This document shows positions 25,544 through 46,438 of a stretch of 64,000 nucleotides of DNA, piece by piece. Positions within the stretch are counted from its first letter, which is position 1. Every line of letters begins with the position of its first letter. The position numbers were made by a program, and so were the translations under genes. Source of the stretch: Arboricoccus pini (GTDB taxonomy: Bacteria; Pseudomonadota; Alphaproteobacteria; Geminicoccales; Geminicoccaceae). Under the pieces are notes generated by a model. That model was not told the DNA's origin, made no database searches, and saw only the letters and a list, made by a program, of their open reading frames with translations. Location: the NCBI RefSeq assembly GCF_900187945.1, contig NZ_FYEH01000011.1, positions 1 to 64,000 of the forward strand. The letters run 5' to 3'.

Positions 25544-26458
25544 TCAGGCTGCTTCGATATCCCAATAGCTTTTTTGCGGCGTTGACGTACTGCCTTTGGG
25601 ACGGAAATTCACCAGTACGCCTTGCAGACCCCGCGTCGGCGCAGCGGGGGCAAGGCCTTCCTCGCGCATTGCGCGCATGGTGGGCGACGCCGGATGGCGC
25701 ACGATCGCCAAGCTGTATTCGGGAAGTGAATCGGTCTCCTCGACCTTGCGCAACGTGCTGGCGAACTTGGCCAGCGTATCCTCGCAGCCGACACGACGGC
25801 GTAATTTGTCGAGACCGATGACAAAGGAGGCCTGGTTGCCACAATGACTGCGCGCCACTTCATAGAGTCGGCGCTCGATGGGGCCAAGCGTGAAATAGCG
25901 GTGGTCATAGGTGAGAATACGGAGATCTTTGAGGATCGCCCGATAGAGCCAGTCGCAAAGCCGGACTTTGATGGCCTTCAGCCGCCGCTCGCCGGTTCGT
26001 GCTTTTGAGTATTGGACCCTCGCCTCAGACACCCAGGAAAAGAAGCCGTCCTCGCCCTCGCCGCCTGCCTCGATGTTCGTCTTGATCTGCGTGCCTTGCA
26101 GGCGCTCCAGCGCCTTGGTCAGTCGTTCATAGGACCTGGCCGACCGATTAGCCCCCACCACACGCAGGAAATCATGGCCCGTAAACACGAAGTCCTGCTC
26201 AGGTCGTTCGCCACGGTTCATCTTCTCGACCATCAGCGAGGCGATGTAGAGAAGAATTTCCTTATCATAGATCGTCGCGACGCCGATCGAACTCGGCCGC
26301 ACCTCGATCGTCACCCGGCTGTCTGTGAAGACCAGAGGCTGCATGCGCCGCCCCTTGGAGAGATGAAAGAACGGGAATTCCATAATCGACCGCTCGCCTT
26401 TGACCTTGCCGGTCAAAGGACTGTCGTAGAGGGCTAATTCCGTCTGGATGAGCGTCAT
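25544..26458 (-). CDS. RPA-family plasmid replication initiator
   Basis: 304-residue initiator of the replication initiator protein A (RPA) family, found on many alphaproteobacterial plasmids. Recognisable parts are EFPFFHLSKGRRMQPLVF near the N-terminus, IGVATIYDKEILLYIASL, FTGHDFLRVVGANRS, ALERLQGTQIKTNIE and the C-terminal winged-helix part with LDKLRRRVGCEDTLAKFASTLRKV. It binds iterons to open the origin. The iteron field lies directly upstream of its start (26459-26940), so it may also control itself. An FNDR-like or RepABC system is absent; the partition genes are 18 kb away at 44.6-45.6 kb. Confidence 0.9.
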   Translation of the reverse strand: MTLIQTELALYDSPLTGKVKGERSIMEFPFFHLSKGRRMQPLVFTDSRVTIEVRPSSIGVATIYDKEILLYIASLMVEKMNRGERPEQDFVFTGHDFLRVVGANRSARSYERLTKALERLQGTQIKTNIEAGGEGEDGFFSWVSEARVQYSKARTGERRLKAIKVRLCDWLYRAILKDLRILTYDHRYFTLGPIERRLYEVARSHCGNQASFVIGLDKLRRRVGCEDTLAKFASTLRKVEETDSLPEYSLAIVRHPASPTMRAMREEGLAPAAPTRGLQGVLVNFRPKGSTSTPQKSYWDIEAA

Positions 26459-26547
26459 CGGCGTTCTTTATCGATTCGTTTCGGGCAAGTTCGTCGATCG
26501 ATCGAGAATGATAGACATCGCCGTCTTGGTCGATGTCCATACCGTCG

Positions 26548-26940
26548 ATTCGTGCTTTCGCACCAGAATCCGCGTTAGCACGAATCTTAGTCACGAACGA
26601 GAGGCAGGCTCGAGTGACGGTTTCGCCCGCGACTTGGTGGGCATCGTTCGTTTCGTGCTTTCGAGGATTGTTTGGTTAGAAGGTTATGAGAGTCTTAGAG
26701 ATAGGATGTTAACGCTCTGGTATCGTCATGAAAAATATGGATAAAAGACTTCTTTGACGACTCGAAGGCACGAATCTCATGGGGCAAAACCACGAATCAG
26801 CCTGACGGTCAAAGCACGAACGGGCCTTCCTGATCGCACGAAGAGGAAGCTCAGGAACCCTGCGCTGCTGGGCCAGGGTTACGGGGTGTGAAAGCACGAA
26901 AAGTCTGCCATCTCCCGACCCTTCGTGCTTTCGCACCGAT
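26548..26940. repeat. Iteron field, candidate replication origin
   Basis: A 12-bp motif TTCGTGCTTTCG occurs exactly at 26549-26560, 26652-26663 and 26922-26933. Inverted, slightly changed copies lie at about 26763-26774, 26785-26796, 26809-26820 and 26889-26900, and weaker half-copies (GCACGAA) near 26576 and 26835. The copies stand in both orientations around an AT-rich stretch at about 26660-26760. Such iterons next to an RPA initiator are the expected origin. No protein-coding frame here looks real. Confidence 0.85.
26736..26744 (-). promoter_or_regulatory. DnaA-box-like site in the origin
   Basis: TTATCCATA on the minus strand differs from the DnaA consensus TTATCCACA at one base. It lies in the AT-rich centre of the iteron field, where a DnaA box would help opening. 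A 9-mer with one mismatch could be chance. Confidence 0.4.
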
Positions 26941-43195: not shown

Positions 43196-44380
43196 TCAAT
43201 GCCGCCTGTTGAGGTCGCGTAAAAGGCTTAGTAGTCGATCCAGTTCGGTCTCGTTATTGTAGTAATGCGGCGAGGCGCGCACGACGGCCGGCAGATGACG
43301 GGCTTGCGCGTCCAGAAGCGTGCTATCGGGTCGCGAGACGTTTACGTTGATGCCGGCATTGCCGGCGCTGGCCATGATTTCGTCGGCCGTCCACCCCGCA
43401 ACGGTGAAGCTGACAATGGCAGAGGGTTTGGGCCCGAGATCATGGAGCGTGATGCCGGGTACGGCGCGCAGCCCGTCGCGCAATCGCCCGGCGAGGTGCT
43501 GACAGCGCTCGGCAATGCCTGCCAGCCCAAGGCCCAGCGCATAGTCGATTGCGGCACCGAGGCCTAAAAAAGCGGCCCAGTCCTTCTCCCAGGTCTCGAA
43601 GCGCCGGGCGTCGGCTCGAAGCTCGTAGCGGTCCGGGGCCTTCCAGGGGGCGCCGCCATGATCGATCATGGCAGGCTCGAGATCGTGGCAAAAGCCGGCG
43701 CGCACATAGAGAAAGCCAGTCCCGCGGGGCCCGCGGAGAAATTTGCGGCCAGTGCCTGTCAGCATGTCGCAGCCAATCACTTCCACATCGACCGGAAACT
43801 GCCCTACCGCCTGGCAGGCGTCCAAAAGATAGGGAATGCCGTGCGCGCGAGCGACAGAGCCCACCTCGGCTGCCGGGTTGACCAAGCCGCCATTGGTAGG
43901 CGCCCAGGTGATGGCGATGAGTTTCACGCGCTCGTCAAGCATTTCCGCGAGCGCGGCGGGGTCGAGCACGCCGTCCTGGTCGTCGGGGATGACCTCGATA
44001 CGCGCGCCGGTTCGCCGCGCCACTTGAAGGAATGCCACGTAATTGGCGGCATATTCGGCCCTGGCTGTCAGGATGCGGTCGCCCGGCCCGAAACTGAGCG
44101 CGTAGAATGCGGCCTGCCAGGCGGTGGTGGCGCTTGAAAACAGCGCCACCTCGTCGGCCGTCGCGTTAAGGAGACGAGCGAGACTGTCATAGATTGCCTC
44201 GAAGCGGGGTGCCGCTTCCGCTGCCGCCTCGTAGCCGCCGATCTCGCTTTCCCGCCGCAGATGGCCGATCACCGTCTCCAGAACCGGACTCGACAGGAGG
44301 CTGGCCCCCGCATTGTTCAGGTGGACTCGCCGGCCCACGCCCGGCGTCGCCGCGCGGATGGCTTCTATAGGCAGGTTCAT
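43196..44380 (-). CDS. PLP-dependent class V aminotransferase
   Basis: 394-residue fold-type I PLP enzyme of the class V group (cysteine desulfurase, isopenicillin-N epimerase and EgtE relatives). HLNNAGASLLSSPV is the start motif, ALFSSATTAWQAAFYAL the phosphate-binding region, ITWAPTNGGLVNPAA and YLLDACQAVGQFPVDV the Asp that pairs with the pyridine nitrogen, and TGTGRKFLRGPRGTGFLYV carries the PLP lysine. The C-terminus has VNVSRPDSTLLD and RASPHYYNNETELDRLL. No ergothioneine genes adjoin, so the substrate is open. Confidence 0.88.
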   Translation of the reverse strand: MNLPIEAIRAATPGVGRRVHLNNAGASLLSSPVLETVIGHLRRESEIGGYEAAAEAAPRFEAIYDSLARLLNATADEVALFSSATTAWQAAFYALSFGPGDRILTARAEYAANYVAFLQVARRTGARIEVIPDDQDGVLDPAALAEMLDERVKLIAITWAPTNGGLVNPAAEVGSVARAHGIPYLLDACQAVGQFPVDVEVIGCDMLTGTGRKFLRGPRGTGFLYVRAGFCHDLEPAMIDHGGAPWKAPDRYELRADARRFETWEKDWAAFLGLGAAIDYALGLGLAGIAERCQHLAGRLRDGLRAVPGITLHDLGPKPSAIVSFTVAGWTADEIMASAGNAGINVNVSRPDSTLLDAQARHLPAVVRASPHYYNNETELDRLLSLLRDLNRRH

Positions 44381-44468
44381 CGACGTGCGTCCTTGTCATC
44401 TGGCCATGGTACCTGGTGACAGATCGGGCGGCGCACGCCAAGACCCAGTCGGCATCGATCGAATGACG

Positions 44469-44487
44469 ACAGCCAACTGACAACAGA
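44469..44487 (+). repeat. Isolated copy of the par-region repeat
   Basis: ACAGCCAACTGACAACAGA is 18/19 identical to 46065-46083 on the other side of the parA cassette, 1.6 kb away. It lies in the short gap between the aminotransferase start and the parA operon end. It may be a second centromere or Par-binding site. Confidence 0.5.
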
Positions 44488-44646
44488 TACTGGAGAACAA
44501 ATGACTTCAGTCCAGCCCGGGCTGCCGCCGGCAAGAAGGGGGTACTCGACGCGGATCCGGCTCAGTACGATCCATGATCGGGGCTGTCATCCTCGGCCAA
44601 GCACCTGCGCGGTGCTCGGCCGAGCCGGCGGAGCCAGCGTCACCGG

Positions 44647-45012
44647 TCAATATTGGCGGCGGCCGTCCAGCTCGCGATAGGGCGGCACGTCGATGCCGAA
44701 GGCGCGCATCATCTCGATGAAGAGTTCCTTCTTGCCCCAGCCACGCCGTGCCGCTTCCTCCTCGAACCGGTTGCGGATGGTGACGGGCATATTGTTGAAC
44801 GACATCATGACCCGTTCCTCGCGGCGGATGCGTGAGAGCTCGTCGCTGACAAGGCGCGGACTTTGCGTTGCCAGCTCTTCGAGAGCGGTTCCGACCCGGC
44901 GTGATGGCCCCTCCCCTGCCCGTCGTCGGCGCGCAGGCGATGGTGCGACTGCTGGCGGCGTCTCATCCTCGGCATCGAAGGCGCCCAGATCAAGCGGCTT
45001 TAGTTTTGCCAC
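44647..45012 (-). CDS. Small ParA-partner protein, possible DNA-binding
   Basis: 121-residue basic protein. The first 50 residues are Ala/Pro/Arg-rich and probably disordered; the C-terminal part (SFNNMPVTIRNRFEEEAARR, then GWGKKELFIEMMRAFGIDVP) looks like a compact helical or ribbon-helix-helix-like fold. It overlaps parA by 23 bp in the same direction. Partner proteins of ParA in such cassettes bind the centromere. It shows no ParB HTH or nuclease motif, so the assignment rests mainly on context. Confidence 0.7.
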   Translation of the reverse strand: MAKLKPLDLGAFDAEDETPPAVAPSPARRRRAGEGPSRRVGTALEELATQSPRLVSDELSRIRREERVMMSFNNMPVTIRNRFEEEAARRGWGKKELFIEMMRAFGIDVPPYRELDGRRQY

Positions 45013-45643
45013 GACGGCCTCCCAGAAGTTTGTCGGCCCTGAGGGCCTGGATGAACTCGTGCAGATGACGGGCGGCGGCGCCTTCGGGCAGCTGGCCGGT
45101 CGTGTGCATTTCCTTAAAGCCCGTCAGGCTTGGAAGCCCCGCTTTGTAGAGTGGCGCCTCCGCCGTGGTATAGGCCTCACTGACATTGGCCGTCACGCGG
45201 GCTGCCGGGTTGTGGTTCATCAGCACAATCTGCACCGCCTTCGGCCGGCCGGAGATCGCCTGTACCTGCTTGATTTTCTTCCAGGTGCGGATAGCGCCGG
45301 CCGCGTCGGGGCGGCTGGCCCCGCTCGGGATGAGGACGAGGTCGGCGGCCGCCGCCACGTAGACGATCATCTGGCTGTCGATGCCGGCACTGTCGATCAG
45401 GATGACGTCATATTTGGGCCTGAGCCGGTCGACCACCTCGGTGACATTGTCCTCGTTCGTCTCGGCATAGACGTCAAAGCCCGGGTCCGCCAGATCGTGA
45501 AAGTCCATGCATGTGTGTTGGCGGTCGGTGTCGATGACGAGCACCTTGTCCCCTGCCCGCGCCAGGACAAGAGCCAGGGCGCAGAGCAGCGTGCTCTTCC
45601 CGACGCCACCCTTTTGCTGGATTGCCGCAATAACCTGCGCCAT
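44990..45643 (-). CDS. parA: ParA-type partition ATPase
   Basis: 217-residue P-loop ATPase of the MinD/ParA family. The deviant Walker A is QQKGGVGKSTLLCAL with the signature Lys, VLVIDTDRQHTCMDFHDL is Walker A', and YDVILIDSAGIDSQMIVYVA is Walker B. It lacks an N-terminal HTH, so it is the small (type Ib) class whose partner usually regulates the operon. Together with the overlapping small gene and the upstream repeats, it should segregate the replicon. It is 18 kb from the initiator gene. Confidence 0.93.
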   Translation of the reverse strand: MAQVIAAIQQKGGVGKSTLLCALALVLARAGDKVLVIDTDRQHTCMDFHDLADPGFDVYAETNEDNVTEVVDRLRPKYDVILIDSAGIDSQMIVYVAAAADLVLIPSGASRPDAAGAIRTWKKIKQVQAISGRPKAVQIVLMNHNPAARVTANVSEAYTTAEAPLYKAGLPSLTGFKEMHTTGQLPEGAAARHLHEFIQALRADKLLGGRRGKTKAA

Positions 45644-46438
45644 CCTTCTCCTCCATTCTTTGCGCGCAGCCTACCTGAATTCGGCATACAGTAAACTGTC
45701 ATTAGTTATGTGTCGTCAGCCTATGGGTACAACTGGTGATGCTCCTCGTCCCATGCGGTCGATATACAGTCAACCAAGGTCAGACAACTAACTACAGACA
45801 ACAGACGCATGACCTATAATCCGTTTATGTCCCAGCCTGCCCCGCAGTCAGTGCCTATTGTATTTTGGGCTAGGTCTATCGACAGACGACTGACAACTGC
45901 ATAGCAGCTCCAGCGAACTAACGCCAGGCGACCAATAACCGGCAACCGACAACAGACACCAGATATAAAAAATGCGAACTCGCGGACGACAGCCTTCATC
46001 GAGCGGCCCCGTGCGATGCTTTCTTTCTGCCGCTTTTCGATCATCGCCCAATGGAGGAGCGTCAACAGCCAACTGGCAACAGACAACAGACGACAGACGA
46101 CAGACGACAGACAGATATGAATCTGCGTAAGTGGTTAGACCAATCGTACATACGGTTTCGGGCGAACGGGGGAAGGGCGGCCAACCCGGCACGGGAGCGG
46201 GATCGTCGGGCGTCTTGACAAGGTGGCTCGGCTAACATCGATCGGGCCATGATGAAGGCCGCCGGGGCCGATCGGCAACTTGGGATTGCCAGCGCGATGG
46301 CAAGCGTCTCAAGCAAGAAGCTCTAAGAGACAGGCCGCCATGCCCATGCGCCTGTCGCTGATGGGGCGTTCCGACGTAACCCCGAGGAGGGGAGGGGTGC
46401 CGCCGGCCACTGCGGGATGCCCCGATGGGTGCGAGCGG
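45644..46438. repeat. Candidate centromere region upstream of parA
   Basis: A gene-free 795-bp region with many short repeats of the type RACAACAGAC. Clusters lie near 45783-45812, 45881-45900 (GACAGACGACTGACAAC) and 45943-45963 (CAACCGACAACAGACACCAG). At 46065-46083 is the 19-mer also found at 44469-44487, and 46079-46113 is a perfect tandem of five 7-bp units ACAGAC(A/G). The base composition is lower in GC than the surroundings. Such direct repeats just upstream of a small ParA operon are typical of parC/parS sites. The frames read here are only repeat artefacts. Confidence 0.7.

Follow-up and report, generated by a model that had tools for sequence, protein, structure and literature searches.

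A parA cassette in a 64,000-nucleotide stretch of Arboricoccus pini DNA (the window; positions 1 to 64,000 of contig NZ_FYEH01000011.1, here C13) is, judging by its sequence, very probably a type Ib plasmid partition locus, made up of a ParA ATPase, a small, probable ribbon-helix-helix (RHH) DNA-binding partner and, as the putative centromere, arrays of in-phase 7-bp units (heptads) on both sides of the two genes. Observed directly here are both genes, the heptads with their phase, placement on two sides and conservation in relatives, and a replication initiator gene on the same contig.

The parA gene (44990–45643, minus strand) encodes a 217-aa Walker-type ATPase. Its Walker motif, KGGVGKS, occupies residues 11–17, and the protein therefore has no N-terminal DNA-binding domain. 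ParA matches the Pfam families AAA_31 (E = 1.3e-18), CbiA (E = 3.7e-12) and VirC1 (E = 2.7e-11), as well as the NCBIfam model ParA_partition (E = 1e-30, which is below that model's cut-off), and among solved structures in the PDB its best E-value is to ParF (4dzz, 4e-12). The parB-like partner gene (44647–45012, minus strand) encodes 121 aa and begins with a GTG codon within the end of parA, giving an overlap of 23 bp; overlaps of 13–23 bp were found in all 40 cassettes measured, duplicates included. When type Ib systems are defined by a ParB-like partner of 46–131 aa encoded beside parA, this protein belongs among them by size and position. The neighboring genes, which encode a class-V aminotransferase and an MFS transporter, lie on the same strand.

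The repeats described in the first-pass annotation were recovered. Five tandem ACAGAC(A/G) units lie at 46079–46113 with no mismatches (none of 100 shuffles matches even when 3 mismatches are allowed), and the array at 46063–46113 has the top score (60) among the 29 Tandem Repeats Finder rows of the window. The two copies of a 19-bp element (44469–44487 and 46065–46083) are identical at 18 of 19 positions, and further copies with 3 mismatches occur at 45938, 46072 and 46079, where none is expected by chance. RACAACAGAC is present in exactly three copies (45797, 45948 and 46082), with no exact copy elsewhere in the window; allowing one mismatch, 9 of the 10 window matches fall within 44479–46112, compared to 2.9 expected window-wide. 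While these pieces and positions were right, the description was incomplete, as it missed an inverted cluster at 45684–45718 and the full extent of the repeats. The ACAGAC(A/G) units, the RACAACAGAC clusters and the 19-bp element are parts of one period-7 heptad system, whose unit, read in the direction of parA (minus strand), is roughly GTYGNCN, with GTTGTCT as the best form.

The repeats do frame the parA and partner genes, as had been claimed, with five clusters upstream of parA (45684–46115) and one downstream of the partner gene (44464–44505). We mapped the heptads with a matrix made by hand from the window and used for this mapping only. Cluster 1 (46060–46108, minus strand) holds the longest run, seven contiguous heptads that read, from 46108 to 46060, GTCGTCT three times, followed by GTTGTCT, GTTGCCA, GTTGGCT and GTTGACG, with a degenerate eighth unit reaching 46115. 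Cluster 2 (45912–45967, minus strand) has eight in-phase heptads, five of which start with GTT or GTC while the others are degenerate; cluster 3 (45870–45904, minus strand) has three GTT/GTC heptads in phase with degenerate flanking ones; and cluster 4 (45768–45809, minus strand) has six in-phase heptads, three with a GTT start and the others degenerate. Cluster 5 (45684–45718, plus strand) is the inverted one; it lies 41–75 bp before the parA start codon and is a possible operator. The downstream cluster (minus strand) consists of six in-phase heptads past the partner gene and contains the 44469 copy of the 19-bp element. Two minus-strand open frames of 90 aa and 114 aa (45814–46086 and 45848–46192) look like by-products of the repeats and were rejected as genes.

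The period of the upstream region stands far above expectation: GTT/GTC triplets spaced 7 bp apart number 21 in 45644–46143, whereas 500 dinucleotide shuffles average 0.77 and never exceed 4. The autocorrelation of identity over the same segment stands out at lags 7, 14 and 21 (z = 7.3, 7.5 and 4.4); a weaker peak at lag 4 (z = 3.9) arises inside the heptad unit. The downstream cluster taken alone is weak: its three GTT/GTC pairs 7 bp apart are equalled in 4 of 500 shuffles and its single GTT pair at that distance in 15 of 500, the lag-7 z is 2.0, and TGT or CTG pairs 7 bp apart are absent. This cluster is only moderately unusual by itself, and its support comes mainly from the relatives.

Relatives of the partner were found on 13 plasmid records, all from Rhodobacterales, with 34–43% identity over residues 44–120, and in 30 genome-contig loci that, according to their record titles, belong mainly to Rhodobacterales, together with Porphyrobacter, Erythrobacter, Ponticaulis and unassigned alphaproteobacterial bins. 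The partner is present in one of 31 genomes of the host family, the host's own, and in 3 of 385 genomes of the host class, the host's own included. None of 598 pattern matches was confirmed when genome contigs were scanned with the single partner protein, and none of 45 when viral contigs were scanned with the partner alignment. Wherever the fetched stretch held a complete parA, that gene directly precedes the partner gene. In 8 of the 12 plasmid stretches, the gene immediately before parA is in turn an annotated replication initiator (order repA-parA-partner); the other four are either cut by a record boundary (L014 and L016) or have no repA in reach (L018 and L023).

The 42 related loci (12 plasmid, 30 genome) yielded 34 cassettes with distinct upstream DNA, which are not independent samples. 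Three loci were dropped for lack of a complete parA (L014, L054 and L056) and five because their upstream stretch was identical to another; H53, probably a near-copy of H52, was left out, and L061, found later, lies outside the 34. The partner alignment comprises the window protein and 25 of the 30 genome loci (all except L034, L039, L044, L054 and L056). Upstream of parA in the 34 relatives, GTT pairs, a motif chosen by eye before the count, number 110, 98, 78 and 55 at spacings of 7, 14, 21 and 28 bp, and at most 4 at any other spacing up to 30 bp.

We then scored the best three-heptad chain of each relative with leave-one-out heptad matrices against 100 shuffles (300 for the window). No shuffle reaches the score of the upstream array in any of the 34 relatives, and the downstream array outscores every shuffle in 30 of them; in the other four, the downstream score is reached by 7 of 100 shuffles (L015), 6 of 100 (L055) and 1 of 100 (L040 and L050 each). 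For the window the margins over the best of 300 shuffles are narrow, both upstream (22.0 versus 20.9) and downstream (14.5 versus 13.0). Leaving one out removes only the tested locus while its near relatives stay, and training across groups is the stricter comparison. When the matrices came from one strand-motif group and the test cassettes from the other, the upstream array was recovered in 7/7 and 27/27 cassettes and the downstream array in 6/7 and 20/27 (misses 1/7 and 7/27). The relatives' heptad is GTTATCW, and its commonest form, GTTATCT (35 of 264), is one base from the GTTGTCT of the window. Anatomy and conservation together support the earlier suggestion that the repeats are the partition sites of a small ParA system. 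A distant cassette from another alphaproteobacterial family, L061, carries GTTGACG-type heptads in both orientations upstream of parA (L061:2160–2270); by eye, none were seen downstream.

We also scanned all 142,258 bp of C13 with a heptad matrix built from the relatives only, the window left out. Among four-heptad matches, this cassette accounts, with both of its sides counted, for 12 of the best 13 and 16 of the best 25; the remaining nine of the best 25 lie at 84619–84626, 90182–90196 and 112280–112288. Inverted cluster 5 is the best of all three- and four-heptad matches on the contig. For three-heptad chains, 15 of the best 25 are in the cassette, including the top one, and the runner-up, at 90189, lies in DNA that is richer in AT. 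Across the 4.07-Mb genome, a pattern of two heptads derived from the window matches 100 times, ten of these in this cassette, and its reversed control 83 times; the closest pair elsewhere in the genome is 548 bp apart (contig C23). Three other ParA loci of the genome have no array of this kind beside them, their best heptad chains scoring 3.7, 13.3 and 5.6, versus 23.7 here. Outside the window, C13 has two to three more in-phase heptads (GTTGTCAGTTGTC) inside an open frame at 84619–84653, which could be a dispersed extra site of the kind described for plasmid pMF1, or chance. Near another ParA gene, contig C17 has perfect tandem arrays of GCTTGTTCG (6.3 copies, L003:106–162) and CCTGC (14.2 copies, L003:308–378).

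Neither the partner nor its alignment has a significant match in Pfam, NCBIfam, PHROGs or PDB sequence searches, and RHH_1 matches 2 of 26 family members with a best E-value of 0.042, which is not significant. The AlphaFold2 model of the partner is of low confidence overall (mean pLDDT of 63) and has no strand drawn. Residues 71–110 have block means of 82–91 and form two helices after an extended segment; the model of one relative's partner displays similar low-confidence helices (mean pLDDT of 68). When residues 65–108 of the model are compared to the PDB, most matches are to RHH proteins (CopG, MatP, AmrZ, CdbA and ParG, at Z = 3.3–4.8). The best of these matches has a Z of 4.8 and an rmsd of 3.6 over 41 aligned residues, a range in which the tool warns of common arrangements, and Foldseek returned E-values of 2.7 or worse. 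These matches point weakly to an RHH fold, and the partner is probably an RHH centromere-binding protein.

Characterized type Ib systems use repeat sites of this kind (PMC9499535, PMC3235114). As described in PMC9499535, the pSM19035 centromere consists of contiguous, non-palindromic WATCACW heptads, direct and inverted, near promoters; a ParB dimer occupies a single heptad, and full activation of ParA requires four contiguous heptads. The pSM19035 delta/omega system resembles the present cassette in pairing a ParA with a small partner (RHH in pSM19035, RHH-like here) and in its 7-bp units near promoters, and the rule of at least four contiguous heptads (PMC9499535) holds here, with seven at 46060–46108. 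The two systems differ in the unit, which is WATCACW in pSM19035 but GTYGNCN here and GTTATCW in relatives, in the single overlapping operon found here, in phylum, and in the six parS sites of pSM19035. The type Ib parCAB system of Myxococcus plasmid pMF1 likewise has a small ParB, and repeats on both sides of its operon are bound by this protein (PMC3235114); its units are instead related to AGATGTCT, it has a third gene, parC, and its ParB is 75 aa long. TP228 ParF/ParG/parH, also type Ib, provides the best solved match of ParA (ParF) and one of the weak fold matches of the partner (ParG), whereas its parH repeats are separated by AT-rich regions (PMC5016525) and the arrays here are contiguous and two-sided.

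By analogy with pSM19035 and pMF1, we interpret the arrays on the two sides as one heptad centromere, which probably serves as an operator too. One partner dimer would bind one heptad, and dimers would line up next to each other on the in-phase arrays that flank the operon, forming a partition complex. Following pSM19035, TP228 and pMF1, nucleoid-bound ParA in its ATP form would capture this complex, and array-bound partner would then stimulate ATP hydrolysis by ParA, such that ParA is released and sister plasmids are moved apart. The cluster adjoining the parA start probably lets the partner repress its own operon. The pB171 par2 locus is also said to have repeat regions on both sides.

Alternatively, the heptads might be operators only, through which the partner autorepresses parA and its neighbors, with partition taking place at another site or not at all. 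Cluster 5 lies shortly before the parA start, a -35-like word, TTGAC(A/T), occurs in 27 of the 34 related upstream stretches, and type Ib partners repress their own operons, as reported in PMC3235114 and PMC9499535. However, five clusters spread over 430 bp, together with an array beyond the operon's end, exceed a repressor's needs, both sides are kept in most relatives, and the operator and centromere roles are compatible. We therefore regard a purely regulatory function as unlikely. A TA found 16 bases after TTGACW in the same 27 relatives was rejected as a sign of a promoter, given that a TA falls there through heptad phase alone, and a scan for sigma-70 consensus promoters and terminators found none. 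The class-V aminotransferase gene (43196–44380) starts 84 bp from the downstream heptad cluster, which, at 84–125 bp before that start, could be an operator of that gene.

The VirC1 match of ParA raises the question of whether the pair acts as Agrobacterium VirC1/VirC2 does, with an overdrive-like element and in conjugative transfer rather than segregation. ParA scores above the Pfam VirC1 cut-off (43.7 bits versus 24), and a MOBQ relaxase is listed in PLSDB for several relatives, such as L012, L013 and L016. The same protein nevertheless misses the cut-off of the NCBIfam VirC1 equivalog NF010423 (45.2 bits versus 313). In 8 of the 12 plasmid stretches parA follows repA and not mobilization genes, a setting of replication and partition rather than T-DNA transfer. 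A phmmer search of the C13 frames with the L012 MobQ relaxase and coupling protein gave nothing up to E = 10, tblastn with these L012 proteins gave a single match to C13, at chance level (MobQ, E = 0.98), and the MobA/MobL matches of this genome sit on C9 and C17. With relaxases of the MobQ and MobA/MobL families as the ones searched, a transfer function is very unlikely.

Segregation as the function of the cassette is consistent with the replicon on which it resides. An RPA-type replication initiator gene (25544–26458, minus strand; Pfam RPA, E = 1.1e-64) lies 18.5 kb from the cassette, and its product is similar to that of the repA preceding parA in L012. C13 is probably a plasmid or chromid. 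It is a linear contig with no exact terminal overlap, so chromosomal integration is possible, and the window repA stands apart from the cassette, versus directly before parA in most plasmid stretches. The genome has four RPA genes, on C4, C12, C13 and C16, each contig also having a ParA-like match; the host therefore probably harbors several plasmids or chromids together, each of which would require a centromere of its own. The RPA gene of the window is preceded, at 26542–26937, by three dispersed 23-nt repeats (TTCGTGCTTTCG core, 70–100% identity), possibly its iterons.

Direct repeats do occur near plasmid rep genes, and the heptads themselves could accordingly be replication iterons bound by the RPA initiator. 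Yet separate 22-bp tandem repeats lie just upstream of repA in L012, L013 and contig C4, the 23-nt repeats that precede the window repA are of different sequence, the heptads are 18.5 kb from that gene, and they stay with parA and the partner where the fetched stretch shows no repA (L018 and L023), all of which makes such a role extremely improbable. The chance that the heptads arose by accident or by low-complexity microsatellite drift is negligible, for although the unit is short and the downstream cluster alone only moderately unusual, the upstream count was never reached in 500 shuffles and in-phase arrays occur in every one of the 34 relatives.

Partner and heptad may vary together. Among partners in which the strand predicted to contact DNA reads RVQF, 227 of the 274 heptads counted have A as their fourth base (GTTA). 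G is the most frequent fourth base for the two partners in which the Gln is replaced, those of the window (RVMM, Met for Gln; 19 of 38) and of L061 (RTVW, Val for Gln; 7 of 13). These departures are only two in number, the DNA scanned in the window was a longer stretch than in the relatives, and out-of-phase GTC triplets are included in the window count. A pairing of one partner residue with one heptad base may act as a recognition code that separates plasmids sharing a cell; such a code is directly testable, given that a single heptad base and a predicted contact residue distinguish the window from its relatives.

A small type Ib partition locus is a kind of machine already known, but this branch seems to be undescribed, and among the papers listed by literature searches none treats this ParA/partner pair or heptads of the GTTAT type. 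We tentatively suggest, with considerable doubt, a new type Ib branch in which the partner matches none of the profile families searched, the centromere consists of heptads on two sides and specificity has changed naturally. The heptads provide a sequence-level definition of the likely centromere for a ParA/partner pair found on plasmids from Roseivivax, Paracoccus, Phaeobacter, Roseobacter and others; the records of these plasmids either call the partner a hypothetical protein or leave it unannotated. Since centromere sequence can set compatibility, knowledge of the heptads could help to predict which plasmids coexist.

The partner gene is also found in a chromosome record. OX638326.1, a 4.15-Mb MAG chromosome, carries two partner genes (L047 and L054) about 7.4 kb apart near 3.35 Mb, one of them shortened and with no detectable parA, which suggests integrated plasmids.
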